Source of the DNA: an uncultured Ardenticatenia bacterium
Lineage (GTDB): Bacteria > Chloroflexota > Anaerolineae > Promineifilales > Promineifilaceae
Reading direction: 5' to 3'
Length of the DNA: 17,835 bases
NCBI GenBank assembly: GCA_937858165.1
Contig: CALLZA010000923.1
Span: forward strand, 1-17,835
The notes beneath the pieces are model-generated. The model was not told the origin of the DNA, searched no databases, and saw only the letters and a program-made list of their open reading frames with translations. Of this stretch, positions 1 through 17,835 are shown piece after piece. The translations under genes were made by a program, and so were the position numbers. How positions within the stretch are numbered: the stretch's first letter is position 1; every line of letters starts with the position of its first letter.

Positions 1-149
1 CTGTTTCGCTTCCTGTCGGGTCGTTTGGTAGTATTGCGTACTGTGTCAGTTCTAGTGCTGATATGGTATTGATCGTGTGTAGGCGTCGTTTATTGATTGT
101 TGGTGTTATAGCAGTTATGTTTTTTTTTTTTTATTTTGTTTTGTTTTTT
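1..149. other. Non-genomic read noise outside the P5 adapter
   Basis: This stretch lies outside the Illumina P5 sequence. It is T-rich with a long T run at about 120-150, unlike the GC-rich insert. It looks like the reverse complement of the low-quality, A-rich bases that sequencers emit after running off the end of an adapter. I see no gene in it. Open frames that cross it are artefacts. Confidence 0.9.
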
Positions 150-219
150 AATGATCCGGCGACCACCGAGATCTACACTAGATCGCTCGTCGGCAGCGTC
201 AGATGTGTATAAGAGACAG
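150..219 (+). other. Illumina Nextera P5/i5/Read-1 adapter (contamination)
   Basis: Positions 150-178 match the P5 flow-cell sequence with one mismatch (C for A at 156). Positions 179-186 (TAGATCGC) are the i5 index known as N501/S501. Positions 187-219 are the Nextera Read-1 sequence, ending in the 19-bp Tn5 mosaic end at 201-219. Genomic DNA therefore begins at 220. This is library-construction sequence, not a natural transposon end. Both strands give spurious peptides familiar from contaminated databases, such as one ending SSAASDVYKRQ on the plus strand. Confidence 0.98.
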
Positions 220-4272: not shown

Positions 4273-4279
4273 GATCTTA

Positions 4280-5770
4280 CTATTCCATGATCAGATCGTC
4301 GCCCAACGTCAGGCGCAACCGGCGCGCCGCGGCCGTGGCCGCGGCGGTCGGGGTCAATCGCCCCTGGTGCACTTCCAAAGCGAACTCCGCCAGAATACGC
4401 TCATACTCCAGAACGTCGTGGTCGATGTAACTGGGCCAGACCTGCTGATGCTCGCGTAGCAGCTCGATGCCGGCTGGATAGCCCGCCAGCAGCGCCGGCG
4501 ATGGCGAGACGGCCAGCGCGCTCAGTAGACCGGAGCCGGCCATGGCGTTGTGTAGCTGGGGGGTCGTGGCCTGGGCCAGCAGGGCACAGGCCTGGCCCTG
4601 CAGCCGCCTTCCCGTCGCCGCCTCATTCAGAACGACGAAGTAAGCGAAGCGCGACCGGAGTGTCCCTGGCAGCCCGGCCACGGCCGAGGGCAGCCCGGCC
4701 ACGCCGACATCATCCGCCGACAGCGACAGGGCTGGATTTACCCCCCGCTCGGCGCTGCTGTCGGCGACGAGCAGCCACTTCTGCCAGTCTATGGATTGGC
4801 TGTGCCAGAACAAGGCCCGACCGTGGCCCATGGCATCATTCCAGACCAGCCGCGAACTCCAGCTATTCGCAGAGCCTTGCAGAAGGTAAGGGCTGATCAG
4901 TCCAGCGTCCACCATCTCCCGGCGAAATGCGTAGGTAGCCGCCAGGGCAGCTTCGGTGATGACCAGCCGATCTTGGGCGGTGTCGCGGATTCGCCCGCCA
5001 AAAGCCACGTAATGCTCGATGATCTTGGTGCTGCCGGATGGCCGTTGGGAAAAGCCGAAACCAGGCTGCACGACCCCGGCATCGATGGCCGCGGCGGCCG
5101 TGTCGCGCAGGTCGAGCAAAGTGAAGTCGCCGGTGGCGATGCGCGTCGGAAGTTGGTCAATCTCCGCCTCCGACCAGCCCAGGGCACGCAGCTTGGGCTT
5201 GCTGAAGAAGAGTACCGACAACTCCTGTGCCACCGGCACACCCCATATCTCGCCGCGACCCGTGACATCCGGCCAGGCGTTGGCTGCGATACGGGCCAGG
5301 GCCGGCTGCGCGGCGCGACAGGCCGTCAACGGTTCCAACACCCCGGCCGCGACCAGCATCGGAAGATACCCGGTGTCGGTCAGATAGACCACATCCGGCG
5401 CGTTGCCGGTGGCCGCCGCGGCCAACAGATGATCACGGAAATCGGTCTCGATGATATCGTAACCCGTGGCGGTCAGACTTAGAGGTTGGCCATCAGACCG
5501 CTGAACGGCCGACAGAAGCAGTTCGCCGGGCCACTGGCTGTGGAGAACGATCGGATACCAGGCCGTCAGTTCCGATACATTGCCGGCGGCCGGTGCGCTT
5601 GCGCGGCGGGCGACCAGCGCGACTTCGGGCAGCGACGTATCGCACCCGGCCAGCAGGGCCACCCACCCCAGAGCAATCGCCCAGGCAACCGCTCTACTGC
5701 CGCGGCGCACCATCGAGCAGATAGCGATAGCGATTGATCTGCGCCAGCCCATCCGCCTTCCATCCTTCAC
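4280..5770 (-). CDS. Extracellular solute-binding lipoprotein (family 1, MalE-like), orphan
   Basis: 496 residues. The GTG at 5770 is chosen because a strong AGGAGG lies 6 nt upstream, within the preceding gene. The signal sequence has a long Arg-rich n-region and ends in the lipobox LAGC with Cys43, so the protein is anchored outside the membrane. The length fits periplasmic-binding-protein-like sugar-binding proteins. Family-like segments are GNAPDVVYL (122-130), GEIWGVPVA (173-181), a VLFFSKPKLRALGW stretch (186-199), and a later FWHSQS region. No ABC permease or ABC ATPase is present in the window. Instead it lies between two AAA/STAND ATPase genes, overlapping the first by 77 nt and 7 nt from the second. 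I infer a sensing rather than an uptake role. An ATG at 5713 would give a shorter classical signal peptide but has no Shine-Dalgarno. The ligand cannot be predicted. Confidence 0.78.
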   Translation of the reverse strand: MKDGRRMGWRRSIAIAICSMVRRGSRAVAWAIALGWVALLAGCDTSLPEVALVARRASAPAAGNVSELTAWYPIVLHSQWPGELLLSAVQRSDGQPLSLTATGYDIIETDFRDHLLAAAATGNAPDVVYLTDTGYLPMLVAAGVLEPLTACRAAQPALARIAANAWPDVTGRGEIWGVPVAQELSVLFFSKPKLRALGWSEAEIDQLPTRIATGDFTLLDLRDTAAAAIDAGVVQPGFGFSQRPSGSTKIIEHYVAFGGRIRDTAQDRLVITEAALAATYAFRREMVDAGLISPYLLQGSANSWSSRLVWNDAMGHGRALFWHSQSIDWQKWLLVADSSAERGVNPALSLSADDVGVAGLPSAVAGLPGTLRSRFAYFVVLNEAATGRRLQGQACALLAQATTPQLHNAMAGSGLLSALAVSPSPALLAGYPAGIELLREHQQVWPSYIDHDVLEYERILAEFALEVHQGRLTPTAAATAAARRLRLTLGDDLIME

Positions 5771-6878
5771 CGCCTACCTCCTCTTCCAGCGCCGCCAGCC
5801 GTGCCTGGCATAACAGTTGCACCAGAATGGGCCAGCCTTGGCTCTGGATTAGTATCCAGTTGCTGTCGTCTGGGGCGAACGTCTGGGGCGACACAGCGAT
5901 CAGCGCCCGGGCCTCGTCGCTCGTCAGCGGCCCGAGGCGTACGGACGTGAACAGGTTGAAGAAGGGCGACGTCTTGCCAAAGCCGGCGGCCAACGTCTGC
6001 AGGTCGTCCAGTGCGGCGATGGCGAAGGCCAGGGCGCCGCGAGTGACGCTGGTGACCAGCGCGCGCATGCTGCGCCAGAAGTCGCCATCGTACTCCGCCA
6101 TCTCCAGCGCCGCGCCGAGTTCGTCAAGCATGATAATGGTCGGCTGGGGCAAACCATTGCTAATCGTCTCGATGAAGCTCTCCAGGGTACAAGGTTCGTG
6201 GGCCGGCAAACCCAACTCGGCCAGCACATAGCGCAACAGATTGTCGCGTCTGTGCCAGCGGGGGTCGAAGAAGTCGATGTAGATCCAGCGGTAGCGGTCC
6301 GCCTCCGGTAGCCAGTCGTGGCGCTGGCCGGGGCGTAGATGGCGGGCGGGGGTGGTGTTGATCGTCCTAAGGTAGTGGAGCAACGACGTGCGCCCGCTGT
6401 GGCGTGGTCCAATGATGGCCACGTTGTGAAGTGGCGAATGTCGCCACCAGGCGAAGATCCGGCTGCACTCCCGTTCGCGGCCGAAGAACTGTGCCGGCTC
6501 AGTGATCGGCTGCTGGGTTACAAACGGGGCCAACGCCCGCGCCGCGCGCGGCAGAGGAGGCGGGTTGCCCGACTGGAAAAGGGATTCCAGCAGTAGCTCT
6601 GGTCGCGCATGCCCACCGGTGCGCAGGAACTGCTCGCATGTTCGCCGGTTAAGCCCACCCCGTTGCACCAACAGAGTGGCCAGGTGCTCCAGAAGGCGCG
6701 TGTCGGCCGGAACGTTGCCCTTGCGCCAATAGCCGATCGTCGCCGCCCCACCCTTGTCGCGCCCCAGGGCGTAGGCCAGCTCGTCCTGAATCGTTTCGAT
6801 CTTCTTGCGCTCTTTGGCTTTGATCAGGTGGATAGCCTGAGTCAGCCAATAGGCAAACTGGTCTGGTGAAGACGCCAT
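5694..6878 (-). CDS. HTH-like N-terminus plus AAA/STAND-type ATPase with atypical Walker A
   Basis: 394 residues, no signal peptide or membrane helix, so cytosolic. Residues about 5-75 resemble a Cro/C1-like helix-turn-helix region (IGYWRKGNVP at 48-57 is typical of the recognition-helix end). Residues about 130-370 are an ATPase: FFGRERE (131-137), a P-loop GPRHSGRTS (157-165) in which the invariant Lys is Arg163, Walker B IIMLDE (248-253), and a late GWPILVQLLC (348-357). The last motif mirrors HPFLLQLLC in the membrane ATPase encoded downstream, suggesting the two ATPase domains are distant paralogs. It is the first gene of the minus cassette and is divergent from the WXG100 operon, so it could act as a regulator of either. 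The Lys-to-Arg change may weaken ATP hydrolysis. The Shine-Dalgarno for the ATG at 6878 is weak (GGAAG about 15 nt upstream). Confidence 0.72.
   Translation of the reverse strand: MASSPDQFAYWLTQAIHLIKAKERKKIETIQDELAYALGRDKGGAATIGYWRKGNVPADTRLLEHLATLLVQRGGLNRRTCEQFLRTGGHARPELLLESLFQSGNPPPLPRAARALAPFVTQQPITEPAQFFGRERECSRIFAWWRHSPLHNVAIIGPRHSGRTSLLHYLRTINTTPARHLRPGQRHDWLPEADRYRWIYIDFFDPRWHRRDNLLRYVLAELGLPAHEPCTLESFIETISNGLPQPTIIMLDELGAALEMAEYDGDFWRSMRALVTSVTRGALAFAIAALDDLQTLAAGFGKTSPFFNLFTSVRLGPLTSDEARALIAVSPQTFAPDDSNWILIQSQGWPILVQLLCQARLAALEEEVGGEGWKADGLAQINRYRYLLDGAPRQ
5777..5782 (-). promoter_or_regulatory. Shine-Dalgarno AGGAGG inside the upstream ATPase gene
   Basis: A consensus AGGAGG on the minus strand lies 6 nt before the GTG at 5770. 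It decides the start of the solute-binding protein gene over the ATG at 5713. It is embedded in the 3' coding part of the HTH-ATPase gene, so the two genes overlap by 77 nt and are probably translationally coupled. Confidence 0.7.
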
Positions 6879-7272: not shown

Positions 7273-7575
7273 ATGGGCGATTTGATTGAGGTGGATTTCG
7301 AAAAGCTGGGGCAGGTACACAAGAAGTTCACGGAGCAGGCGGAGGCGTTCGCCAACACGCTGCGCGACGTGCGCGCCAAACTGGAACCGCTCCAGAACGG
7401 CGGCTGGAAAGGCGATGCGGCCGACGCGTTCTTCAAGGAGATGAACGACGTCGTCCTGCCGTCCTCCACCCGCTTGCAGAAGGCATTTATCGAGGCCGCA
7501 GCGACGACCAAGCGCGTCGGCGACACGGCCAACAAGGCGGAGCAAGACGCCGTCAACGCCTTCCGGCTGGGCTAA
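7273..7575 (+). CDS. WXG100-family (ESAT-6-like) protein 1
   Basis: Exactly 100 residues from the ATG at 7273, which has a GAGGAGAG Shine-Dalgarno at 7258-7265. The frame stays open upstream to a GTG at 7120, but that extension would put a hydrophobic segment on a leaderless family and is rejected. Two helices flank the central turn GGWKGDAADAF, with Trp45-Lys-Gly47 as the WXG motif. A Phe 8 residues and a Pro 18 residues after the Trp are shared with the next two genes. WXG100 proteins form helical-hairpin dimers exported by EccC/EssC ATPases. No Tyr and hence no YxxxD/E export motif is present, so a partner carrying one would be expected. It is the first gene of the operon. Confidence 0.92.
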   Translation: MGDLIEVDFEKLGQVHKKFTEQAEAFANTLRDVRAKLEPLQNGGWKGDAADAFFKEMNDVVLPSSTRLQKAFIEAAATTKRVGDTANKAEQDAVNAFRLG

Positions 7576-7588
7576 AGGAGGAACAACG

Positions 7589-7894
7589 ATGGCAGGCAAC
7601 GACATCATCAAGCTGAACTACACCCAGGCGCGAGCCATGGCCGCCAGCATGAAAAAGGGCGCCAAACAGTTGGAAGCGAGCATCAACGAGATGAACCGGA
7701 TCATGTCCCTGTTGCAGGGTGGCGGCCTGCGGGGCGAGGCGGGCGAAGCCTTCATTGACGGCATGCGCAGCGCGCTCATCCCCAACATGCAGCGCCTGCA
7801 GCAGAAGTACGTCGAGGTGCAACTCGACATCCTGAAGAACGTCCAACTGAACATCCAGGCCGACCGCAAGTCGCGCGACGCGATGCGCAACTAG
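7589..7894 (+). CDS. WXG100-family protein 2, Trp replaced by Leu
   Basis: 101 residues, 13 nt after the previous gene, with AGGAGG (7576-7581) 7 nt before the ATG. The helical-hairpin layout is the same, but the turn reads GGGLRGEAGEAF, with Leu47 in place of the Trp of WXG. Gly49, Phe55 and Pro65 keep the spacing seen in proteins 1 and 3. It is Met- and Gln-rich in both helices. The likely role is partner of a neighbouring WXG100 protein in a secreted or structural heterodimer. Membership is supported by length, turn, spacing and operon position despite the missing Trp. Confidence 0.85.
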   Translation: MAGNDIIKLNYTQARAMAASMKKGAKQLEASINEMNRIMSLLQGGGLRGEAGEAFIDGMRSALIPNMQRLQQKYVEVQLDILKNVQLNIQADRKSRDAMRN

Positions 7895-7917
7895 CCGTCG
7901 CGGGCAAGGAGAACACC

Positions 7918-8274
7918 ATGGGACTCTTCGATTCGTTCAATCCGCTGATCAAGATCGCCAAGCAGGTCGTCAAGGGCGTGCAGGCGGGCATCATGCAGCA
8001 GGTCAACATCGTGGACACGGCCGTTAAGGCCCCGGTCAACGCCATGATCGGCCAGGTGGTCGGCGGCGTCTGGAAAGGGGAAGGCGCCGACGCTTTCGTG
8101 GAGGTCTGCAAGAATCTGGTCTTGCCCGAGGCCGAGAGCATCATGTCCACTGGTCGTACGATGAGTGGCGGCATTGGTCAGGCGCTCGACATCATGGAGC
8201 GGGCCGACAATCAGGCCACCGGGTTTATCAATGATCTGGTCGGCAGCTACTTCAAGAACATCTACAGAGCTTAG
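7918..8274 (+). CDS. WXG100-family protein 3 with N-terminal extension
   Basis: 118 residues, with AAGGAG (7906-7911) 6 nt before the ATG. The turn GGVWKGEGADAF contains Trp52-Lys-Gly54, and Phe60 and Pro70 keep the shared spacing. The N-terminal side is about 7 residues longer than in protein 1, beginning MGLFDSFNPL, and the C-terminal tail is also longer and ends aromatic/basic (YFKNIYRA). The longer helices could suit a different partner or an effector-like role. No YxxxD/E is seen. One Cys (64) lies just after the turn. Confidence 0.87.
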   Translation: MGLFDSFNPLIKIAKQVVKGVQAGIMQQVNIVDTAVKAPVNAMIGQVVGGVWKGEGADAFVEVCKNLVLPEAESIMSTGRTMSGGIGQALDIMERADNQATGFINDLVGSYFKNIYRA

Positions 8275-8325
8275 GGTGGCGGACGCGCCGGCGGCCCACC
8301 AGTAGACACGACAAGCGAGGAACGT

Positions 8326-8625
8326 ATGGCCAAGACGGAAACAATGATGAACGTGCCCGCCGTCAAAAAGATGGGCACTACTTTTGGCGACATCGGTGGG
8401 GTTCTAGATGGCGTCAGCAAGGTGATGCAGCTGCTGCTGACGACGCTGCGGGCGACGGCCTTCGTCGGCATGTTCGGCGGCTGGGCGTTGCAGTCCTATC
8501 TGGAACAGGTCAAGCCGGTTGTGGATCGGCTGGCCAAGCAGTGCAAGGAACTCGGCCGTGATCTGGCCTTCTCCGCCCAGGCCTATGAGCGGGGCGACGC
8601 CGAAGGCAAGACCCGCTTCTACTAG
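8326..8625 (+). CDS. WXG100-like protein 4 with a YxxxD motif
   Basis: 99 residues, GAGG (8317-8320) a few nt before the ATG. It is more divergent: the first helix is hydrophobic (about 33-50), the turn is GGWALQSYLE with Trp53 but Leu in place of the Gly, and the Pro comes 11 rather than 18 residues after the Trp. The C-terminal tail has YERGD (87-91), matching the YxxxD/E motif known as a type VII export signal on one partner of actinobacterial dimers. It is the only one of the four with that motif. It may be the signal-bearing partner, or a more distant ESX-type helical protein. Confidence 0.75.
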   Translation: MAKTETMMNVPAVKKMGTTFGDIGGVLDGVSKVMQLLLTTLRATAFVGMFGGWALQSYLEQVKPVVDRLAKQCKELGRDLAFSAQAYERGDAEGKTRFY

Positions 8626-8648
8626 GCGGGTGATCCAGCGCATTTGTC

Positions 8649-8689
8649 GGCGCGACGGACCCAGGCCTTTCGCCTGTGCCCGTCGCGCC
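8649..8689 (+). other. Strong two-tier stem-loop between the WXG100 genes and the VWA-FHA gene
   Basis: GGCGCGACGG (8649-8658) pairs perfectly with CCGTCGCGCC (8680-8689). Inside it, CAGGC (8662-8666) pairs with GCCTG (8672-8676), with a symmetric 3x3 internal loop and a 5-nt apical loop CTTTC. No U-tract follows, so a simple intrinsic terminator is unlikely. It fills most of the 99-nt gap between the small-protein genes and the machinery genes, fitting an mRNA-stabilising, processing or attenuating element. Confidence 0.7.
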
Positions 8690-8724
8690 AGCCGTGTCCG
8701 GAATACGATGGAGCGGGAACTACC

Positions 8725-10809
8725 ATGACCTTTCGCGCGCGTGCCATCCGTCTTCTCGGCCTGTTGGGGGCGCTCGGTCTGGCCTGTTGGCTGGCGGCCG
8801 GCCCCGGTGGCGCGGCCCCGGCCCAGGCCCAGGCCGACGCGGCCACCCGCCTGGAGATCGTCACTGTGGACACGTCGGGGTTCCCGGACACAGTCGTCAC
8901 CGTCAGAGTGGTGGACGCCAGCGGCCGCCCCGTGCGCGGTCTGACCGACTTCCAACTGTTGGAGAACGACCAACCTGTGGCCACCCCCGACGTAGAAGAG
9001 GTCGAGATAAGCGCGTCCATTGCGGTTCTCGTTCTTGTCGATCAGGGGATTCTGTCCATTCTGCGCTACCGCAGTTACTACGAGGATCCCCCCACCCTGA
9101 AGGGCGTGCTTCAGGCGTTGGGGGATGGCGTTCTGAGCGAGACGGATACGGTCTGCCTGGCCGTCGGTCGCGCCGACAGCGGCACGAACGGCCGCCAGCA
9201 GATGCTACTTCCTCTTGAATGCGGCCTCTACTCCCCCTTCGACTACGACCAGAGTATAGCCGAACTGGATATAGACCTGGCGCAGCAGTTCCCCGCCGGC
9301 GACCCCCGCCAGGACGTGCAAGGTGTCCATACTGCCCCCTTATTTGAGGACGCGCTGACTGCCCTGGCTGGTCAACCGGACCCGGTCGTTGTCTTCCTGT
9401 CGGCCTACATGGTCGCGTCGCCGGAGCAGGAGGGCCAAAACCCGTCGCAGGCGACGGCTGACCAGGTAGCCCAGGCGGCCGTCGCTGCCGGCGCACGCGT
9501 CTTCGTCTTGCAGGCCGCCGGCAACACATTGGCCGGCAACCCGGCCGAACTGCAAGAGCCGATGATCACCCTGGCCCGCGAGACCGGCGGCGAATACGTC
9601 GAACTGAATGTGGGCCGTGATTATGTCAATGATGCCCGCGCCGCTTTTGGCCGCATTCGCCGGCCCGATTTCGCCTACGAACTGACCTACCGCAGCGCCG
9701 ACGGCACGCCGGGCGAGCGGCGGCTGTCGGTGGCCCTGGCCGGGCAGCCGGAGTTGGTCGTGGAGCAGACCGTCAGCGTGGCCGTCGCCCCGCCCGCAGC
9801 CGACGAGGCCAATCTGGCCATCGACCCGGCGCTGGACGGCCGGCGTCAGATTCGCGTGCCCATCGCCTGGCCGGACGACTTCTCGCCGCGCGCCATTCGG
9901 GCCGTCACCCTCAACGGTGAGCCGATCGAGACATTTGACTTGGCCGACGGCGTGCTCACTTTCTCCATTGATGAGATGATCACTGGCGACCTGCGCCTGG
10001 TGATCGAGGATGAGGTGGGCCAAACGGCGCATCTGGTGATCCAGATTGCTACGCCGCCGTCGCCTACACCAACGTCCGCCCCTCCGACGGCCACGCCCAC
10101 GCCCGCTGTCGTGCCTGTCGCGCCGCCCAGCCGATTCACCGGCGTCTGGCCGTGGCTGGCGGTACTGGCTGTGGCGATAGTGGCCGCCGCAGCCTATCTG
10201 GGGATGCGCCGCGGAACGCTGTCGCACAGCGGCCAGGGCATCGGCGAGGGGGCGCGGCGCATCGCCACCATCGGCACGGCCCGCGAGGAGAAGCAAGCCC
10301 TGGCCTATCTGCTCGTTCTGACCGGGCGCGACAACCTGATCGGCCAGAACGTGCCCCTCTACAATGAGATCACAACCATCGGTCGCGATCCCCAACTGAC
10401 CGATATCCAACTCTACGACGTCAGCGAACTCAGTTCGATCAGCGGCCAGCATTGCACCATCCAGGTTGATCACGGCCTCTTCCTGATCATTGACAACAAC
10501 TCTTCCAACGGCACCTATGTCAACGGCGAAGCGCTGACCCCCGACCTGCCCCACCAGTTGCAGAACGGCGACGAGATCGTGCTGGGCGACAAAGCCCGGC
10601 ACGGGGCGCAACTGCGTTTTGAGATCAGCCGGCGCGCCCTCAATCGCTTCTCCCACACCGTCATCGACGGCGAGTGGCAGGGCGGCGAGCGCAGCGGCAC
10701 GGCGACGACTCCCGGCCCGACGCGCGGCCTCGACCGCCTGGATGACCTATGGCCGCCCGACGAAGCGTCGGCGGAGCCACCGGCAGCCAGCACAGGCCAG
10801 GCGGAGTAA
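8725..10809 (+). CDS. Extracellular VWA-like / TM / cytoplasmic FHA protein 1
   Basis: 694 residues from the ATG at 8725, which gives a clean signal sequence (MTFRARAIRLLGLLGALGLA) with GGAG at 8710-8713; the frame extends upstream to 8644 but runs through the stem-loop. Residues about 40-340 look like a beta-sandwich plus a VWA-like fold (IAVLVLVD at 99-106, VVVFLS at 221-226, GARVFVLQA at 256-264), but the MIDAS-like position reads DQGIL, so metal binding is doubtful. A Thr/Pro spacer (about 444-468) precedes a TM helix (about 474-493). The cytoplasmic tail has an FHA domain: TIGRD (551-555), SISGQHC (571-577), NNSSNGTYVN (591-600). FHA domains bind phosphothreonine, so it is probably a target of the kinase encoded 3 nt downstream. 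The orientation is VWA outside, FHA inside. Confidence 0.85.
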   Translation: MTFRARAIRLLGLLGALGLACWLAAGPGGAAPAQAQADAATRLEIVTVDTSGFPDTVVTVRVVDASGRPVRGLTDFQLLENDQPVATPDVEEVEISASIAVLVLVDQGILSILRYRSYYEDPPTLKGVLQALGDGVLSETDTVCLAVGRADSGTNGRQQMLLPLECGLYSPFDYDQSIAELDIDLAQQFPAGDPRQDVQGVHTAPLFEDALTALAGQPDPVVVFLSAYMVASPEQEGQNPSQATADQVAQAAVAAGARVFVLQAAGNTLAGNPAELQEPMITLARETGGEYVELNVGRDYVNDARAAFGRIRRPDFAYELTYRSADGTPGERRLSVALAGQPELVVEQTVSVAVAPPAADEANLAIDPALDGRRQIRVPIAWPDDFSPRAIRAVTLNGEPIETFDLADGVLTFSIDEMITGDLRLVIEDEVGQTAHLVIQIATPPSPTPTSAPPTATPTPAVVPVAPPSRFTGVWPWLAVLAVAIVAAAAYLGMRRGTLSHSGQGIGEGARRIATIGTAREEKQALAYLLVLTGRDNLIGQNVPLYNEITTIGRDPQLTDIQLYDVSELSSISGQHCTIQVDHGLFLIIDNNSSNGTYVNGEALTPDLPHQLQNGDEIVLGDKARHGAQLRFEISRRALNRFSHTVIDGEWQGGERSGTATTPGPTRGLDRLDDLWPPDEASAEPPAASTGQAE

Positions 10810-10812
10810 CCC

Positions 10813-11742
10813 ATGGCGCTGCCAACCGGCCAATTCATCGAACCCTATCGCATCGAGGCGTTGCTGTCGGAGGGGGGCATGTCGGACATCTATCTGGCCA
10901 GCACCCAGGATCGCCGCTATCACAAGATCGCCGTCAAGTGTAGCAAGGACGGGCGGATCGAATATCAGGACGCCCTGCGGCGCGAGGTAGACAATCTTAA
11001 GCTCCTGCGCCACCCCTGCGTCGTGCGCATCTACCCGCTGCGCCTGAGCCGCGAGCGTGTGGTCTACCACGCCCGCGCCGACAAAGCCCCCAGTCAGCCG
11101 TGGTACTTCGCCATGGAGCACATTACCGGCGGCGGGCTGGATAGCCACATCGCGCGGCTGGCCCATCTGTCGGTTGCCTGGCGAACGGAGTTGTTCTACC
11201 AGTTGCTTGTGGCCGTCCACTTCATCCATCGCGCAGGCTTTACGCATTGTGATTTGAAGCCGGAGAACATTTTACTACGCGAAAATCCGCGCATGGATCG
11301 CCTGCCGCAGCCGGTGCTGGTTGATTTCGGCAGCGCCTCGCCCATCGGCCGCCGCCGCAATCTGACCCACACGCCCCATTACGCCCCACCCGAAGTCATC
11401 CGCGCGGCCGCCGACCCGCAGAACCGCGACCTGCGCGCCCCGGAGATGCTCCCGCCTGATAAGGCCGACATCTGGGCGTTGGGCGCAATCTACTATGAGT
11501 TGTTGACCGGCGTGCCGCTCATCACGGCAACGACCTACGGTGACGCGGTGGAGGCCGTATTGAGCCGAAAGTGGCACCCCAATGTCGGCCGCAGGGCCGA
11601 TGTTCACCCGTCCCTGGCCCGCCTGGTGGAGCGCATGCTACAAGTCAACCCCTACGATCGGCCCACCGTGGACGACATCATCGTCGACGTGGAAGAGCGA
11701 ATCGCCACGATTGCGCCGCCGCGCATCCCGACTCTATCATGA
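10813..11742 (+). CDS. Soluble Ser/Thr protein kinase (non-RD, HCD catalytic loop)
   Basis: 309 residues, essentially a bare kinase domain without TM, PASTA or other sensor domain. Seen motifs: glycine-rich SEGGMSDIYLA (19-29), Lys42 in IAVK, Glu58 in the C-helix, catalytic loop THCDLKPEN (144-152) with Cys146 replacing the usual Arg of HRD, and DFG (171-173). An APE-like APPE and DIWALG (219-224) follow. Catalytic Asp147, Lys149 and Asn152 are kept, so it should be active. Non-RD kinases generally do not rely on activation-loop phosphorylation. GGAG lies 6 nt before the ATG, and the gene overlaps the phosphatase gene as ATGA. It sits between two FHA-protein genes, the likely phosphothreonine readers. 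Confidence 0.93.
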   Translation: MALPTGQFIEPYRIEALLSEGGMSDIYLASTQDRRYHKIAVKCSKDGRIEYQDALRREVDNLKLLRHPCVVRIYPLRLSRERVVYHARADKAPSQPWYFAMEHITGGGLDSHIARLAHLSVAWRTELFYQLLVAVHFIHRAGFTHCDLKPENILLRENPRMDRLPQPVLVDFGSASPIGRRRNLTHTPHYAPPEVIRAAADPQNRDLRAPEMLPPDKADIWALGAIYYELLTGVPLITATTYGDAVEAVLSRKWHPNVGRRADVHPSLARLVERMLQVNPYDRPTVDDIIVDVEERIATIAPPRIPTLS

Positions 11743-13499
11743 CCAAGCTGGTGACTGGCCTCGCCTTTGATATCGGTCAGCGCGACATCTACGAGGATCG
11801 CGTGGCCGTTCGGCGTCTGACGACGCGCAGCAAGCTGGACATCACCGTCGCGCTGGTGGCCGATGGCGTCGGCGGGGCCAATCGCGGCGAACGGGCGGCG
11901 CAGTTGGCCGTCGATGTGGCCCTGCACTATCTGGAAAACGGCTCCACGGCCTCGGATGTGCCCCGTCTGCTCGATGAAGCGTTTGTCGCCGCCAACCAGG
12001 CGGTGCTGGACGAGCGCGAGGCGACAATGGGCGCGTCAACGACACTGGCCGCGGCTGTCGTCCACGAAGATCGCCTCTTTGTGGCTAATACCGGCGACAG
12101 CCGCGTCTACCTCTGTCGCGGCCGGGCGCTGACCCAACTGACCATCGACCACAACTTCGCCAACGTCATCCCCTGGACGGGCACGATGTCGGCTGCGGCG
12201 GCCGCTATCAACCCGCGCGCCGCCGTGCTCATGCACTACCTGGGCCAACGCGCCCAGCCCCACGTTGACCACGGCTTCTACGGCGACGCGCAGTTGCCCA
12301 ACGGCGCGCTGCCGACAACCGACCCGCGCGCTGCCCACGAGCGGGGCATGGTCGGGCTGCCGCTGCGACCGGGCGATGCGGTGCTCGTCTGTTCCGATGG
12401 CCTGGTGAAGCCGGCGCCGAGTGCCCCAGCCTACGTCTTGCCCGACGAGATCGCGCGCGTGCTGGGCACGCAACAGGGTGACCGGGCGGCGCGCAGTCTG
12501 GTGTCGTTCGCTCTGGGGCGCGACGCCGACGACAACGTCTCCGTCGCCCTCATCCAGTGGCCGGGGCGGCGATCGCGCGGTCGTCCGCTCGTGGCTTTCC
12601 TGGCCTTGGTCCTGCTGGTGGGATTGGCGGCGCTGTTGCTGTGGCGCGCCTTCGACGGGCAGCGGCAAACGCTGGAAGGGCGGCTGGCGGCGCAGCAGGC
12701 ACAAGCCACTCAGGAAGTGGCTGCCGTGGCCACAACCGACGCGGCCGAGCAGGCCACGGCAACCGCCACAACCGCCAGCGGCCGGGCGACGGCCACCGCT
12801 CTGGCCGCGGCCACAGCCTCGGCCGAGGTTCGGGTCGCGGCCACGCGCCGGTTACAGGCGGCCACGGCCACAGCCGACGCCGTTGTCGCCGTCGCGGCCA
12901 CAGAGCGGGCCACGCACTGTTCGCTGGCCGGCAACTACAGCTACGAAGTGCGCCGGGTGACGCTGACCCCGGAGACGATTCGCTTCACCGTCGGCAATCG
13001 CCTGCCCCGACCCATTCCCATCGCCGTGCGCTGGCTGCTCACCAACACGGGCCTCTGTCCGCTGGTCGTGGGGGCCATCTATCGCACCCCGGATACCGGC
13101 GACGGGCCGCTGGCGGTGGTGTTCGAGCGCGACAGGGTGGTGCTGGCGGCGCTGCCCCCGGGCGAGAGCGCGGAGTTGGTGGCCACCCTGGGCGACATCG
13201 CCACGTTCGGCGAGTTGGTGACCTGGCGCGACCTCTACCGCTCCGGCGCGGTGCGCTGGGAGCCGGCCATCGCCCCGGCAGGCGAGGCCAGCGCCTTCCG
13301 ACCCATCAACCAGCCCCTGTTGCCGCTCAATAACGCTACGCAGCGGGAGTGGATCGCGATCACCGAACCGACGCCCACGCCTACCCGGCCGCCGACGATC
13401 ACGCCCACGCCCACGGCCGTGCCCACCGACGCTCCACCGCCGCCCGACGCGGACGAAAACCCATCGCTGCCGCCGGCGACGCATACGCCCGTGCCATGA
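11739..13499 (+). CDS. PP2C-family Ser/Thr phosphatase with TM helix and extracytoplasmic domain
   Basis: 586 residues from the ATG that overlaps the kinase stop (ATGA); this coupling fixes the start although the frame is open further upstream. The PP2C domain covers about 5-275: EDR (19-21), VADGVGG (40-46), ANTGDSRVY (116-124), CSDGLV (218-223), DADDNVS (262-268), holding the expected metal-binding aspartates. A TM helix follows (about 283-302). Outside is a low-complexity Ala/Thr linker (about 320-395), a beta-rich domain (about 398-510, with WLLTNTGLCPL) faintly like NBR1-type Ig modules, and a Thr/Pro tail ending the protein. The layout recalls actinobacterial PstP, also PP2C plus TM plus outside region. 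It should reverse phosphorylation by the upstream kinase; here the phosphatase, not the kinase, has the outside part. Confidence 0.9.
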   Translation: MTKLVTGLAFDIGQRDIYEDRVAVRRLTTRSKLDITVALVADGVGGANRGERAAQLAVDVALHYLENGSTASDVPRLLDEAFVAANQAVLDEREATMGASTTLAAAVVHEDRLFVANTGDSRVYLCRGRALTQLTIDHNFANVIPWTGTMSAAAAAINPRAAVLMHYLGQRAQPHVDHGFYGDAQLPNGALPTTDPRAAHERGMVGLPLRPGDAVLVCSDGLVKPAPSAPAYVLPDEIARVLGTQQGDRAARSLVSFALGRDADDNVSVALIQWPGRRSRGRPLVAFLALVLLVGLAALLLWRAFDGQRQTLEGRLAAQQAQATQEVAAVATTDAAEQATATATTASGRATATALAAATASAEVRVAATRRLQAATATADAVVAVAATERATHCSLAGNYSYEVRRVTLTPETIRFTVGNRLPRPIPIAVRWLLTNTGLCPLVVGAIYRTPDTGDGPLAVVFERDRVVLAALPPGESAELVATLGDIATFGELVTWRDLYRSGAVRWEPAIAPAGEASAFRPINQPLLPLNNATQREWIAITEPTPTPTRPPTITPTPTAVPTDAPPPPDADENPSLPPATHTPVP

Positions 13500-13512
13500 G
13501 AGGGAAGCAAGC

Positions 13513-15849
13513 ATGACAAGGCTCAACGTCCGACTCCTGCGCCTCTGGTGGCTGTGGCTCCTGCTGCTGCCCGCCGCTTCCCGGGCTGCCCAGACTGTGA
13601 GCCAGGACGCGCCCCCCCACCACGCGCGCATCACCGCCATCGTCGCCGCCGACACCGCCGATCCGGCCGGCGGCCTGCCCCTGACGGTCTACTTCGTCGC
13701 GGCCGACGAGAGCGGCCGGGCGTTGCCGCGCCCGCCGCTGGTCGAGGACGGCGCAGCGGTGTTGGTGGACGGCCGCCCCTTCCCGGCCACGCTGGCCCCC
13801 TACACCGGCGATAGCTATATCACCCTGCTGACGGACACCACCGACAGCATGAGCGGCCACATGCCGGCCATCCTGACCGCCTTCCTGAGCCTGTTCGAGC
13901 GCAAGCCGGCCAACGTGCTGCTGGCCCTCACCGGCTTCGAGCAGGAGAGCACGACCGTGCTCGACTTTACGGCCGACGCGACGGCCCTACAGGTGGCGTC
14001 GCAACATCTGGTGACGACCGACGAGCGGCTCTCGTGCCCCTTCGACGCCGCCTACGACGCCATCAACGCCGCGTCCCTCGCCGCCGTCCTGGAAGAATCG
14101 CCGCAGGTTATGCGGGCTGTGGTTCTGTTGAGCGACGGCGTCAACAACGGCCGCTGCACCTATCGCACCGACCGCGATCTCGACGGCCTGCTCGAACTGG
14201 CCACCGACAAGCAGATCAGCTTCTATACCATCCTCTTCGGCAACACCGCTCCGGACAACAACGCGCGGCTGGAGCGGCTGGCGGCCGCCACCGGCGGCAC
14301 GTCCTACCGTTTCACCAACGCCGAGCGGCCCGAGCAGCTCAGCGAGCATCTCAACACCATCGCCGCCGGGCTGAACACCCAACAGCAGGCCGAGGCTGTG
14401 GTCTTTACCGAGACCGATGAGGCCGTCTCGGTCAACCTGGAGTTGCGGGTGCGTGGCCAGGGGAACGAGACGACGCCGCTGCGCTCCACCTCGACCGAAT
14501 TCACGCCGCCGCCGCCAGGCATCTTCCGGCCGAGCTTCAAACAACTCTTTCTGGAGGATAGCACCAGCTACCTGTCTCAAACCCAGGACCTGGCTGTCGT
14601 GCTGCGCGGCGCGAACATGAGCGGCGGCGAGCGGGTGCGGCTTCACATCTACGACGTCGAGGGGGGCACCATCGTCCCGGGCACAGAGAAAGCCGTCGTC
14701 TGGGAGGCGGGCCAGGAGCGACGCGACGAGATTTTGCCGGCCGAGGGGCTGGTCAGCGGGCGCGCCTACGCCATCCGCGTCTACAGCGAGGACGTGCCGC
14801 TGCCGGCCGAGACCGAGGTGGGCGCGCCGTTAAGCGAACGAACGTATACCCACGGCGAAGTGACCCCCGTGCCCGAATTTGACCTCAGCCTGCCCCTACA
14901 GCGGCCGGAGACAGGCCAACTGGAGGTGGATCTGGTCGGCGTCGTCGTGCCGCCCGAGGGGCGGACGAGCTACCGCGTCGCCGTGGTCATTGACGGTACG
15001 ACGGTCTATTCGACGCCCGTCGGCAGTGAGCAACCGCTGACCGACGCTGCTGAGCCATTGATCATTCCCTACTACCCAACCGAGGAGGCGACGGCCGACC
15101 GTCCGAGCGTGGACGCCGACATCACCGTCTGGCTGACGTGGCCCGACGGTCGCCAGAGCCAGGCGACGGTAGAGGCCCGGCTGCCGCTGCGGCCGGGCGT
15201 GGGCTGGACAGAACGCCTGGCGGGCGCGCTGCGGGCCAATCCGGTCATTGCCGGCGTTGTTCTGGTCGTCCTCGGCCTTGCCCTGTTCTACCTGCTGGCG
15301 TTACGGCGCTTGAATCGGCTCAACCCGGCGGCTACCTGGCGGCCGGTGCGCGCCCTTACACGGACGCCCGACGCGCCGCCGGCAGGCGACGTCGCCGCTG
15401 TAGGCTCTGCGGTTGTTGGCCCGGCCGCCGGAACGCCGTCCAGCGCCGCGCCGCGCCCAGCGTTGCCGCCACTGTCGTCACACCCACCCCTGGCGGCCAC
15501 CTTGCGCGTCGTCCGCGCCCCTGACACCGCCCGTGAAGGGGAGATCGTCGTCGTGAACCGCTTCCCTTTTCGCATCGGCCGCGAGGGGTGCGAACTGACC
15601 ATCGGCGACGGCCGCACCTCGCGCCACCACGCCTCCATCCAGCAGATCGGCGATCAGTTGGTCATCATTGACAAGAACAGCAAGAACGGTACCTACCTCA
15701 ACGACGCGACTGAGCCGCTGACGCCGGGCATGCGCTGGCCGATGGACGATGGCGATCGCATTTGCATCGGCTCGACCATTGAGCTGCAGCTGGCCACTCA
15801 CCCAACTGGTGACGCCGTATCCGGCGGCGGTAAGCCCACCGGCCCCTAG
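13513..15849 (+). CDS. Extracellular VWA / TM / cytoplasmic FHA protein 2
   Basis: 778 residues, 13 nt after the phosphatase gene, with GAGGGAAG upstream. A signal sequence (about 1-25) leads to a VWA domain (about 100-285). The MIDAS motif is close to canonical: TDTTDSMS (107-114) fits DxTxS, with VVLLSDGVNN (203-212) as a later metal-loop segment. Beta-rich regions (about 300-560) follow, then a TM helix (about 579-597), a Pro/Ala linker and a C-terminal FHA domain: FRIGRE (686-691), SRHH (703-706), NSKNGTYLN (722-730). The topology is the same as VWA-FHA protein 1, making a pair that brackets the kinase and phosphatase genes. The likely role is a membrane scaffold that joins an outside VWA interaction to phosphothreonine recognition inside. 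Unlike protein 1 its MIDAS looks functional. Confidence 0.9.
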   Translation: MTRLNVRLLRLWWLWLLLLPAASRAAQTVSQDAPPHHARITAIVAADTADPAGGLPLTVYFVAADESGRALPRPPLVEDGAAVLVDGRPFPATLAPYTGDSYITLLTDTTDSMSGHMPAILTAFLSLFERKPANVLLALTGFEQESTTVLDFTADATALQVASQHLVTTDERLSCPFDAAYDAINAASLAAVLEESPQVMRAVVLLSDGVNNGRCTYRTDRDLDGLLELATDKQISFYTILFGNTAPDNNARLERLAAATGGTSYRFTNAERPEQLSEHLNTIAAGLNTQQQAEAVVFTETDEAVSVNLELRVRGQGNETTPLRSTSTEFTPPPPGIFRPSFKQLFLEDSTSYLSQTQDLAVVLRGANMSGGERVRLHIYDVEGGTIVPGTEKAVVWEAGQERRDEILPAEGLVSGRAYAIRVYSEDVPLPAETEVGAPLSERTYTHGEVTPVPEFDLSLPLQRPETGQLEVDLVGVVVPPEGRTSYRVAVVIDGTTVYSTPVGSEQPLTDAAEPLIIPYYPTEEATADRPSVDADITVWLTWPDGRQSQATVEARLPLRPGVGWTERLAGALRANPVIAGVVLVVLGLALFYLLALRRLNRLNPAATWRPVRALTRTPDAPPAGDVAAVGSAVVGPAAGTPSSAAPRPALPPLSSHPPLAATLRVVRAPDTAREGEIVVVNRFPFRIGREGCELTIGDGRTSRHHASIQQIGDQLVIIDKNSKNGTYLNDATEPLTPGMRWPMDDGDRICIGSTIELQLATHPTGDAVSGGGKPTGP

Positions 15850-15859
15850 CGAGGAGTCT

Positions 15860-17647
15860 ATGGCGATCGAACGCACCTACATCGAGCGGCCGCCACGCAT
15901 CCAGCCCGAACTGCCGCGACGCGAGGTGGACATCCCCACGCCGCCGGCCATTGACCGCAGCGGCGTGGGCGAACTGATCCAGATGGCCCTGCCGCTGCTG
16001 ACAGTGGTTGGCTTCGTCATGGTAGCCGTAATGGGCGGCAGCGGCGCGTCGCCGCTCATGGTGCTGCCCATGTCGTTGACCGTCCTGGCGGCCACAGGCT
16101 ACTCCATCTATAGCTTCCGCCGCGAACGCCGGCAGCGCGCCGCCGAGCGTGCGGCCTACATCGAACAACTGACCGTCATGCGCCGCGACATGGTGGCCGC
16201 CCAGCATGCCCAGCGGCAGTTCTACCGCTACACCTTCCCCGATGCGGCGACCACTCTGAACATCGTTGCCGACACCGCCCGCCCCCCGGCCGACCGCGCG
16301 GCCGAGACGCGCGCCGGAACCCGCCTCTGGGAACGCCGCCCTGACGACGACGACTTCGCCACGCTACGGCTAGGCATCGGCACGCGCCCCTCGACGGTGC
16401 TGTATAAACCGCCGCGCGTCGAGGGCATCAGCACCACCCTGCTGGATGAGGCGCTGCGGCTGGCCGAGGACTCGCGCTTCCTGAGCGACGCGCCGATCAC
16501 CATTCCCCTGCGCCGTTTGCCGGTGGCCGACGACGAGACCGCCGCGCCGGAGGCAGCCGGCGACAAGCCGCCGACGCCCGATGGGGAGGAGTTGCCTGCT
16601 CCCCAGACGATCCACGCCCTGGGCATCACCGGCCGCCCGGCCGACGTCTACGCCGGGGCCTACGCCCTGCTGGCCCAGTACTGCACCTTCCACGCCCCCC
16701 ACGACGCCCGCCTCCTGGTGCTGGCCGCCGACAGCGACCCGTGGGAGTGGGTCGAAGACCTGCCTCACGCCCAACCCGACGACGTGGGCGACGCGCTGTG
16801 CTTCCTCGACCGGCTGGAGCCGTCGTCGGCCGACGCGACGGACGACGCCTCTGGACTGGCCGTCTATCTGGAGGGGCTGCGGCGGCGGCTGGTGCAGCGC
16901 AAGTTACGGCTGAACGACACCGACCGCGACGCGCAGGACGATCCGACACGCCCCTTCCTGCTGCTGGTGGTTGACCTGCTGGCGGAGTTGCCGTCCGGCT
17001 CGCCGCTGGCGGACGTAGAGACCGACGCCTCGCTGGCCATCTTGCAGCAGAACGGCCCGGCCCTGGGCGCGGCGGTCATCTTCCTGACCCGCGACCGGCG
17101 TGCCGTGCCCGGCAGTTGCGTCGGCGTGGTCGAGATGGCCGCCGACGAGCCGCAGCGGCGCGTCTTCCGCTATGCCGAAACCGGGCTGAACAGCCCGCGC
17201 TACGTGGGTGCGGCTGACGCCGTGCTGTCGCTGGAGGCGTTGCTGGCCTACACCGACACCATTCGCCGCTGGGACGTGCGCAAGACGGAGAGCACCCACA
17301 TCGCCAAGGTGGTGCCCTTTCTGGAGATGCTGCGCGAGAGCAGTCTGCGCTCGCTGCGCGACAGCGCCCAGAGGTATTGGGAGCGCAGCACCCAACCGGA
17401 GCGTGCCCAGCCGTTGCGCGTCAAGGTCGGCTACATGTCCGGCAACAAGCCGCGCGCGCTCGTCCTCTCCGCCAAGGCCGACGGGGTACACGGCATGATC
17501 GCCGGCAGCACCGGCTCAGGTAAGTCGGAGTTGCTCATCTCGCTCATCGCTGCGCTGGCCGCCACCTATGATCCTTCGATGCTCAATTTCGTCCTGGTGG
17601 ACTACAAGGGCGGCGGCGCGTTCAAAGAGTTCGAGGATCTGCCCCAC
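15860..17647 (+). CDS. eccC: EccC-type type VII secretion FtsK/SpoIIIE ATPase (3' end cut by adapter)
   Basis: 596 residues remain; the frame past 17647 is adapter (LSLIHISEPTRPY). GAGGAG (15851-15856) precedes the ATG, 10 nt after the FHA gene. The N-terminus IERPPRIQPELPRREV (8-23) resembles actinobacterial EccC N-termini, then two TM helices (about 43-60 and 64-86). The region with RLWERRPDDDDFATLRLG (155-172) is the EccC segment before the ATPases. The first ATPase domain has Walker A GSTGSGKS (549-556, Lys555) and Walker B FVLVDYKGGGAF (577-588). Full EccC/EssC proteins carry three such domains; two and a part are missing here. There is no N-terminal FHA pair as in firmicute EssC. It is the motor that recognises and exports WXG100 dimers, defining the operon as type VII-like. 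Confidence 0.93.
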
Positions 17648-17713
17648 CTGTCTCTTATACACATCTCCGAGCCCACGAGACCGTACTAGATCTCGTATGC
17701 CGTCTTCTGCTTG
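17648..17713 (+). other. Illumina Nextera Read-2/i7/P7 adapter (contamination)
   Basis: Positions 17648-17666 are the Tn5 mosaic end, 17667-17681 the rest of the Nextera Read-2 adapter, 17682-17689 (CGTACTAG) the i7 index known as N702, and 17690-17713 the P7 sequence. Genomic sequence ends at 17647, inside the EccC-type gene. The peptide SLIHISEPTRPY encoded here is a known database contaminant. Confidence 0.98.
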
Positions 17714-17835
17714 ACAAAAACAAAACACAAAAAAAAAAAACACAAACACAGCTCTCCACCACTAATAACACTTATACCAAGTCCTAACAATAAACATAAG
17801 CTCTGTACACTCAATATTATGCACAAGCGTACACA
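17714..17835. other. Non-genomic read noise outside the P7 adapter
   Basis: AT-rich sequence with A runs immediately after the P7 end. Its composition is unlike the insert. It is interpreted as bases called after the read ran off the adapter. No gene is seen. Confidence 0.9.

Follow-up and report, generated by a model that had tools for sequence, protein, structure and literature searches.

A type VII secretion-like locus of the Chloroflexota with a predicted seven-P-loop EccC

Beyond the T7SSa and T7SSb layouts, types T7SSc to T7SSj of the type VII secretion system (T7SS) have been defined, and every T7SSc-j ATPase has four NTPase domains (PMC11217815; this source and the others cited here were available to us in part). 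Accessory kinases, PP2C phosphatases, VWA and FHA proteins are already known from T7SSc, T7SSe, T7SSf and T7SSj; T7SSc consists of a WXG100 protein, a YukD-like protein, an FHA-less ATPase, a kinase with a transmembrane (TM) segment, a VWA protein and a PPM phosphatase, and T7SSh, which Tad genes adjoin, includes an EspG-like protein together with a kinase-like one that has a TM segment at its C-terminus and lacks an outer domain (PMC11217815). Chloroflex is not mentioned in the available text of that paper; Chloroflexi have been named elsewhere as holders of WXG100 proteins or T7SS (PMC3935865, PMC4010439, PMC10765036, PMC3482391), and WXG100-calpain fusions occur in Herpetosiphon aurantiacus (PMC4631099). 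Here, we analyze a stretch of 17,835 nucleotides (hereafter the window), which is the entire contig C923 (CALLZA010000923.1) of the genome of an uncultured Ardenticatenia bacterium from this phylum (G000, 79% complete). In our reading, to which we give a probability of about three in four, the window is the left part of a Chloroflexota-type T7SS locus with Esx pairs, an expanded EccC ATPase, a ubiquitin-like protein fused to FHA (Ub-FHA), a pseudokinase and a VWA-FHA, kinase and PP2C set, probably serving export under the control of a phospho-switch. Judged from its genes, this locus is a real, conserved T7SS variant, closest in its parts to T7SSc and T7SSh and undescribed as far as our literature search reaches; indeed, neither a multi-module EccC nor such a locus is described in the literature searched, which took in few subscription papers and not bioRxiv.

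A preliminary description of the window had proposed a T7SS-like operon of nine co-directional open reading frames (ORFs) on the + strand (7273-17647), namely four WXG100-type genes, two VWA-TM-FHA genes, a Ser/Thr kinase, a PP2C phosphatase and an EccC. All were found as it stated (Table 1), and the spacing of 3-99 nucleotides with one ATGA overlap that it had reported agrees with our measurements (13, 23, 51, 99, 3, -4, 13 and 10 nucleotides, the overlap being at 11739-11742 and the value of 99 assuming the ATG at 8725, picked by eye, as start of VWA-TM-FHA protein 1). An EccC/EssC-type membrane ATPase and adjoining WXG100 genes, by which a T7SS is generally recognized, are thus both present.

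The EccC gene is interrupted by the end of the contig. Terminal sequences that we take to be Nextera adapters (P5/i5 and i7/P7) occur at either end of the window, and the EccC reading frame stops at the adapter after residue 596 (base 17647), without a true stop codon. Another contig of the same assembly, C704 (L009), begins with an adapter of its own, followed by an ORF of 2143 residues that starts inside an EccC D1 domain. In a genome of the same genus (G003), a single ORF on contig C492 covers residues 1-596 of the window EccC at 91% identity and, from its residue 675, residues 1-1774 of the C704 protein, again at 91% identity; the eight genes ahead of it stand in the same order as in the window, and it has six of the seven P-loops before its contig ends, the D3 part sitting on contig C520. 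Because one G003 ORF matches both pieces behind the same eight genes, we infer that they are one gene, separated by 78 residues (234 nucleotides) by the G003 comparison and encoding about 2817 residues (596 + 78 + 2143) with seven P-loops, one in the window and six on C704, arranged as [D1-D2]x3-D3. The remaining PF01580 matches in the organism's own genome are two proteins, on C65 and C655, which look like FtsK by eye. Nextera adapters are also left at both ends of L009 and, inside ORF tails, where L010 and L079 end; such leftovers in a public assembly cut genes and make false ORF tails such as LSLIHI.

This predicted seven-ATPase EccC, which lies beyond the window's contig end, is the most unusual feature of the locus. 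The window piece (P0009) passes PF01580 (65 bits) and, being truncated, scores under the full-length cut-offs of EccCa (about 189-192 bits) and EssC (about 188-190 bits); its N-terminus may be T7SSa-like or T7SSb-like. N-terminal hydrophobic segments are present in EccC, and no FHA domain was found by Pfam in P0009 or among the precomputed domains of P0013, the uninterrupted EccC of G016 (2903 residues, seven P-loops). P0013 reaches 1552 bits with TIGR03928 (cut-off 778) and 1057 bits with TIGR03924 (cut-off 509), and its residues 1-480 score 123 bits with the EssC and 99 bits with the EccCa model. A database search with P0013 gave 310 proteins at E<=1e-30; among the best 120 of these 310, 113 exceed 2800 residues, 101 have exactly seven P-loops, and all 16 taxon-naming rows are Chloroflexota. 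About 8000 candidates were scored per database search, with 120 proteins listed of 310 and of 1177, and the counts are no census. The P-loops are regularly spaced (differences of median positions 372, 333, 342, 333, 345 and 298). In the 101 proteins, i.e., leaving aside the 19 of 120 without exactly seven P-loops, the residue after the Walker B Asp is Glu in each of the three D1 modules (101/101 each) and Asn in D2a (98), D2b (100), D2c (99) and D3 (88); mean identity is 77-79% for D1 and 61-64% for D2. Going by these residues, each chain has three catalytic-type (D-E) and four D-N sites, a split suggesting that the D1 modules hydrolyse ATP and that D2 and D3 hold it without turnover. In actinobacterial EccC, D2 and D3 regulate D1.

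A second search, started from a 1547-residue relative, brought the proteins listed by both searches to 234. Among them, 32 have the one-module order 123 (median 1530 residues) and 45 the order 122, probably the same form, 9 are two-module proteins (12123, median 2212 residues) and 92 three-module ones (1212123, median 2934 residues), which makes a ladder of three, five and seven P-loops. By distances, the two-module form has its second D1 closest to D1b/D1c and its second D2 closest to D2c. In a tree of the modules, D1b groups with D1c at 0.89 and D2a with D2b at 0.87; with the 5-P-loop proteins added, the support is 0.97 for D1b with D1c, one 5-P-loop D1 falling inside, and 0.2 for D2a with D2b, which are mixed. 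These sequences fit a series of tandem duplications in which an internal D2-D1 unit was copied step by step, the order resting on the distances and on partial support. A clean monophyly of each repeat position was rejected: D1b, D1c, D2a and D2b of the window's EccC and D1b of P0088 are placed apart from the main clades, and the D1a sequences do not form a single clade. Moreover, two genomes (G008 and G029) have a one-module EccC beside the Esx quartet, pseudokinase and Ub-FHA that accompany the three-module form in G016, a member of the same family; as the partners are kept with a one-module EccC, motor expansion is, on gene content, separable from the rest of the locus.

Tentatively, EccC could be a covalently expanded motor, in which stepwise D2-D1 duplication gave one, two or three D1 modules, those of the three-module form either replacing several protomers (a pseudo-hexamer from two chains) or stacking as three rings, a type VII stoichiometry unknown in ESX or Ess systems; we consider this possible, at somewhat less than an even chance. 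In type VII secretion, the assembly of EccC subunits and the turn-taking of D1, D2 and D3 are, to our knowledge, still open questions. Nature here offers motors with one, two or three D1-D2 modules, the smallest and the largest of which share their partner genes. This series is a ready experiment: it shows which domains duplicate together, preserves the D-E/D-N split in the duplicated modules and leads one to expect differing stoichiometries. With seven ATPase units instead of the usual three, a Chloroflexota T7SS may differ in its construction and drive from the machines of tuberculosis bacteria and staphylococci.

Among 400 evenly drawn Chloroflexota genomes, 15 have an EccC match at E<=1e-100, eleven with an open frame of 2874-2993 residues and three with forms of 1376-1502 residues only; two candidates were scored per genome and these counts are lower bounds. 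One of the eleven (G135) has both a 2956- and a 1386-residue EccC, and the window's own genome is a twelfth with the long form. A second EccC-type gene (L108, G003:C322; 1135 residues, cut by the contig end) was seen in G003. The Ub-FHA gene is present in 7 of 59 kin genomes, own included, and the locus is hence patchy even inside the family. The locus comparison leaves aside G092 and G100 (both matched) and L080-L083. Ub-FHA directly follows EccC in 16 of 16 loci (G118b and G418 not counted). The pseudokinase is located between Esx4 and EccC, on either strand, in 12 relatives, and after Ub-FHA in G003 and in the window's organism, where C704 encodes, downstream of EccC, a 227-residue Ub-FHA and then a 339-residue kinase-like protein, the pseudokinase. 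The Esx quartet precedes EccC in 14 of the 14 loci that reach this region (window and G003 counted; the contigs of G011, G021, G118b and G418 stop short of it), a conserved neighbourhood that speaks for the unit seen in the preliminary description; one fetched relative, G003, shows its complete nine-gene order again. These recurrences are not due to chance. Clustering over the fetched loci finds VWA-FHA2 in 9 of 12 lineages and PP2C in 8. Loci that combine the Esx quartet, the pseudokinase, EccC and Ub-FHA are found repeatedly across the phylum.

Regarding the Esx quartet, Esx1 (P0001) and Esx2 (P0002) exceed the PF06013 cut-off of 27.3 bits; Esx3 (P0003, 13.3 bits) and Esx4 (P0004, 13.8 bits) remain below it and belong to families that occupy the third and fourth positions in relatives. 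The WxG motif is found in P0001 and P0003 only and, among the short ORFs in the loci of relatives, in 14/15 at position 1, 0/13 at position 2, 13/13 at position 3 and 0/13 at position 4. As WxG alternates along the four positions, the quartet suggests two unlike WxG+/WxG- partner pairs.

For Ub-FHA, a database search yielded 36 proteins. When seven members were scanned at E up to 1, YukD was matched in three (best 5e-5) and FHA in six, no YukD match shown being over cut-off. Its motifs place a predicted FHA domain in the second half of the protein, with the FHA Arg invariant and Ser-Arg nearly invariant in 15 sequences, and no hydrophobic segment was found in it. The best of five models has a predicted local distance difference test (pLDDT) score of 87 (others 67-87), with FHA domains and ubiquitin-like folds as PDB matches, and thus supports a ubiquitin-like fold. 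In the window's organism, the Ub-FHA and pseudokinase genes overlap by 4 nucleotides; in G003, a secreted trypsin-like serine protease (595 residues, by eye; L028 1816-3603) lies between them. The pseudokinase has its catalytic Asp replaced in all 11 readable cases among 12 sequences, a CxxC...C....C motif close to the start in 11 of the 12 (that of G411 lies beyond the searched stretch, owing to the chosen start) and, in 12 of 12, a C-terminal hydrophobic segment followed by <=10 residues. It is hence predicted to be tail-anchored, with a Cys4 N-terminus and its C-terminal helix in the membrane.

A standalone YukD on contig C744 was rejected as a T7SS part, its neighbours being E1-, E2- and JAB-like by eye. 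There (L079, G000:C744, 163-3360), a YukD-like ORF (42 bits) stands among ThiF/E1-, E2- and JAB-plus-TM-looking ORFs, possibly a ubiquitin-like conjugation operon, and further YukD matches resembling it occur on G008:C23, G029:C517 and G016:C452. Off the main locus of G118, L083 (G118:C55) carries a YukD match at 7998-8171 (34.5 bits, 221-residue frame) and a WXG100 match at contig position 15467, and is perhaps a second T7SS locus of that genome.

The loci also contain 17 larger ORFs (177-494 residues) with a WXG100 head, of which three close genomes of a single genus contribute six. Ten of the 17 were scanned: nine pass WXG100, one is under the cut-off (23.0 bits), and no other Pfam domain, such as a C-terminal toxin domain, is over cut-off; their label of candidate effectors hence rests on the N-terminal domain and the variable tails. 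A loose pattern of our own, AExEAxxxF after the WXG domain, is found in 13/17 of these large proteins, 6/15 Esx1, 0/13 Esx2, 2/13 Esx3 and 0/13 Esx4, and is suggestive of a shared motif. One contig, G167:C1, has 19 WXG100 matches, 15 in open frames of 342-459 residues, 13 of these off the locus, which makes a large candidate substrate set. In one relative, a 263-residue ORF after a WXG-headed ORF matches EspG (33.6 bits, cut-off 27).

Both VWA proteins of the window pass FHA (67.8 and 49.6 bits) and show, by eye, the FHA GR, SxxH-like and NGT motifs; their VWA part scores 26.3 bits in P0008 (cut-off 27) and is without a Pfam match in P0005, and TIGR03436 reaches 32 and 37 bits in P0005 and P0008, under its cut-off of 81. 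The kinase and PP2C pass their Pfam models (Table 1). With the Lys, HCD and DFG motifs seen by eye, the kinase is active-looking; no hydrophobic segment was found in it, and the G411 locus has a kinase with one. Upstream, on the - strand (1555-6878), lie divergent neighbours kept in G003 at 83, 61 and 86% identity, namely an AAA ATPase whose N-terminal half is hydrophobic, a solute-binding-like protein and a further AAA protein, whose matches are under cut-off, preceded by a lipoprotein-like ORF (199-1470, - strand) that is cut by the adapter and has GxGYxYP_N as second domain (37 bits).

Table 1. Features of the window and of the contig carrying the remainder of EccC
Feature	Position	Strand	Basis and remarks
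Nextera P5/i5 adapter and junk, non-genomic	1..219	none	sequence read; mosaic end stops at 219
Esx1, WXG100 with WxG, 100 residues	7273..7575	+	PF06013 37.5 bits; TIGR03930 61 bits
Esx2, WXG100 without WxG, 101 residues	7589..7894	+	PF06013 33.4 bits
Esx3, WXG100-like with WxG, 118 residues	7918..8274	+	TIGR03930 20.6 bits, under cut-off; position-3 family
Esx4, WXG100-like without WxG, 99 residues	8326..8625	+	family kept at fourth position in relatives
VWA-TM-FHA protein 1	8725..10809	+	signal peptide (by eye); VWA weak and lacking a clear MIDAS; hydrophobic segment; FHA
Ser/Thr kinase	10813..11742	+	Pkinase 126 bits; Lys, HCDLKPEN and DFG motifs
PP2C phosphatase	11739..13499	+	56 bits; hydrophobic segment; C-terminal tail; metal-site motifs by eye
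VWA-TM-FHA protein 2	13513..15849	+	FHA passes; clusters in 9/12 lineages
EccC residues 1-596	15860..17647	+	N-terminal membrane segment; putative D0-like region; first half of D1a; P-loop GSTGSGKS
Nextera i7/P7 adapter and junk, cutting EccC	17648..17835	none	sequence read
EccC remainder	L009:184-6615 (contig C704)		predicted continuation of the window EccC

The preliminary description's reading of a T7SS-type locus that follows neither the T7SSa nor the T7SSb layout is borne out by the conserved neighbourhood and by C704, which extends the locus to the right and shows no canonical EccB/D/E set after EccC. Its statement that none of the usual partners appear is weakened by this extension. In 12 genomes there was no match to EssB/YukC (PF10140; the B. 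subtilis control matched) or to EsaA (TIGR03929; 4 of 14 controls matched, one over cut-off), the search covering neither mycosin nor EssA; on the other hand, a Ub-FHA predicted to be of YukD/EsaB type and a pseudokinase EssB-like in kind are located past the contig end. The VWA-FHA proteins may, as it also proposed, take the place of membrane partners. EccB was matched in 0 of 12 genomes, but also in 0 of 14 control genomes, and EccE was over cut-off in 0 of 12, with 0 of 14 controls matched either; two EccE matches at 23.5 bits (cut-off 23.7) are off the locus, inside frames of 2041 and 6684 residues. As for EccD, none of nine PF08817 matches in the 12 genomes is in a frame >255 residues, and five genomes have no match; the predicted ubiquitin-like domain of the locus is joined to FHA, not to a polytopic EccD-like membrane domain.

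As a possible mechanism, EccC multimers in the membrane would export Esx dimers and larger proteins headed by a WXG100 domain. The three D1 modules would hydrolyse ATP, and the D2 and D3 modules would bind ATP and the substrate signal and gate the neighbouring D1. The kinase would phosphorylate threonines recognized by the Ub-FHA and VWA-FHA proteins, thereby switching assembly, and PP2C would reset this phospho-switch. By analogy with EssB, which meets the FHA domains of EssC in T7SSb, the pseudokinase might scaffold EccC and its FHA partners.

Several observations weigh against this reading. No report of secretion by any Chloroflexota was found. The window's own Ub-FHA matches no Pfam family, neither YukD nor FHA, and carries Gln in place of the His that many members show in SRRH; the YukD matches of the loci in the genome search are under the cut-off of 27 (25.2 bits in G029, 24.6 in G008), those over it lying elsewhere. 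The pseudokinase model, built from five sequences, is poor (pLDDT 48), and there is no YukC/EssB match, so its kinship with EssB is by type, without a sequence match. No WXG-headed large protein stands beside the window's locus, the PF06013 search of the 79% complete genome giving Esx1 and Esx2 only, and the EspG-like ORF has relatives in three other lineages, two of which (G021 and G167) were scanned without a Pfam match. Strict P-loop counts in ten long relatives (2871-2992 residues, G016 included) are seven in seven of them, six in G095 and G298 and five in G070, pointing to loss of the motif in some copies. Finally, several relatives' loci show no kinase or PP2C match near EccC, and the phospho-switch may therefore be optional.

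Other explanations of the locus have to be weighed. Many database copies of the FtsK-like protein are named 'DNA segregation ATPase FtsK/SpoIIIE', and TraB, HerA and VirB4 models match it under cut-off, as would befit a DNA translocase or conjugation motor with the WXG genes as unrelated neighbours; this is very improbable, since the EccC/EssC models are over cut-off in P0013 and far above the FtsK model (1552 vs 161 bits), and the Esx quartet stands upstream in every locus reaching it. YukB and EccC5 are moreover in the top four of the solved structures matched by the EccC sequence; the top one, 4nh0, was deposited as FtsK/SpoIIIE and is presumably an actinobacterial EccC. Alternatively, two modules could merely adjoin: a T7SS (Esx, EccC, Ub-FHA and pseudokinase) and, placed between its Esx4 and EccC genes by an insertion in the Promineifilum lineage, a VWA/FHA/kinase/PP2C signalling cassette unrelated to it. 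Indeed, the pseudokinase alone occupies that place in 12 fetched relatives, in which VWA-FHA, kinase and PP2C matches are elsewhere in the fetched stretch or missing, and among the fetched loci the four-gene insertion is confined to the window and G003. However, the recurrence of VWA-FHA2 and PP2C across most lineages argues that the association outlives rearrangement, and we consider an unrelated cassette unlikely.

The expanded motor has a competitor of its own, in which the seven-P-loop EccC forms an ordinary hexamer and the extra D1-D2 modules add substrate-binding sites only, with no extra motor rings. One- and three-module EccC occur with the same quartet, pseudokinase and Ub-FHA within one family, which implies that the rest of the machine need not change, and one or two P-loop motifs are missing from some three-module proteins; yet the catalytic Glu is kept throughout the three D1 modules and D1 is more conserved than D2, which argues that all three hydrolyse ATP and leaves this alternative somewhat doubtful. 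The last possibility is an ordinary T7SSc or T7SSh system that merely happens to be located in Chloroflexota. The window does hold the same kinds of parts as are listed for them, but seven P-loops and a putative D0 compare with four NTPase domains, the available text leaves Chloroflex unmentioned, and, for T7SSc, the Esx set, the VWA proteins, the kinase and the fused ubiquitin-like domain all differ, as detailed below (PMC11217815). An ordinary system of these types is hence quite unlikely.

A Chloroflexota-type T7SS, as we read the locus, shares with T7SSc of Bacillota (TscA-G) an FHA-less EccC-type ATPase, a putative YukD-like protein, VWA, a Ser/Thr kinase and PP2C, the PPM phosphatase being present in the window, as well as an EspG-like ORF, here in one relative (PMC11217815, available part). 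It differs from T7SSc in its seven ATPases in tandem, where T7SSc has three and a D0, its four Esx genes instead of a single WXG100 gene, its VWA joined to TM and FHA where TscE is cytoplasmic without TM, its active-looking kinase without a detected hydrophobic segment where T7SSc has a kinase with TM, its ubiquitin-like domain fused to FHA, its extra tail-anchored pseudokinase and its presence in Chloroflexota. With T7SSh of Bacillota, it has in common an FHA-less ATPase, a predicted ubiquitin-like protein, an EspG-like protein and a kinase-like one that ends in a TM segment and lacks an outer domain, whereas T7SSh has one WXG100 protein and four NTPase domains, with no VWA-FHA or PP2C described in the available text (PMC11217815). 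Like T7SSb of Bacillota (EssC, EssB, EsaA, EssA and EsaB), it has a pseudokinase with TM, a predicted ubiquitin-like component, FHA domains in the predicted complex and larger, here candidate, substrates with a helical N-terminal domain; unlike T7SSb, its EccC is devoid of FHA, no YukC or EsaA match was found in the 12 genomes and the pseudokinase has no outer domain (PMC10765036, available part). Finally, it resembles T7SSa/ESX of Actinomycetota in its EccC type, in Esx genes that seem to form unlike pairs and in the EspG-like ORF of one relative, and departs from it in showing no EccB/D/E block after EccC on C704 and in carrying its ubiquitin-like domain on an FHA protein rather than on a polytopic EccD.

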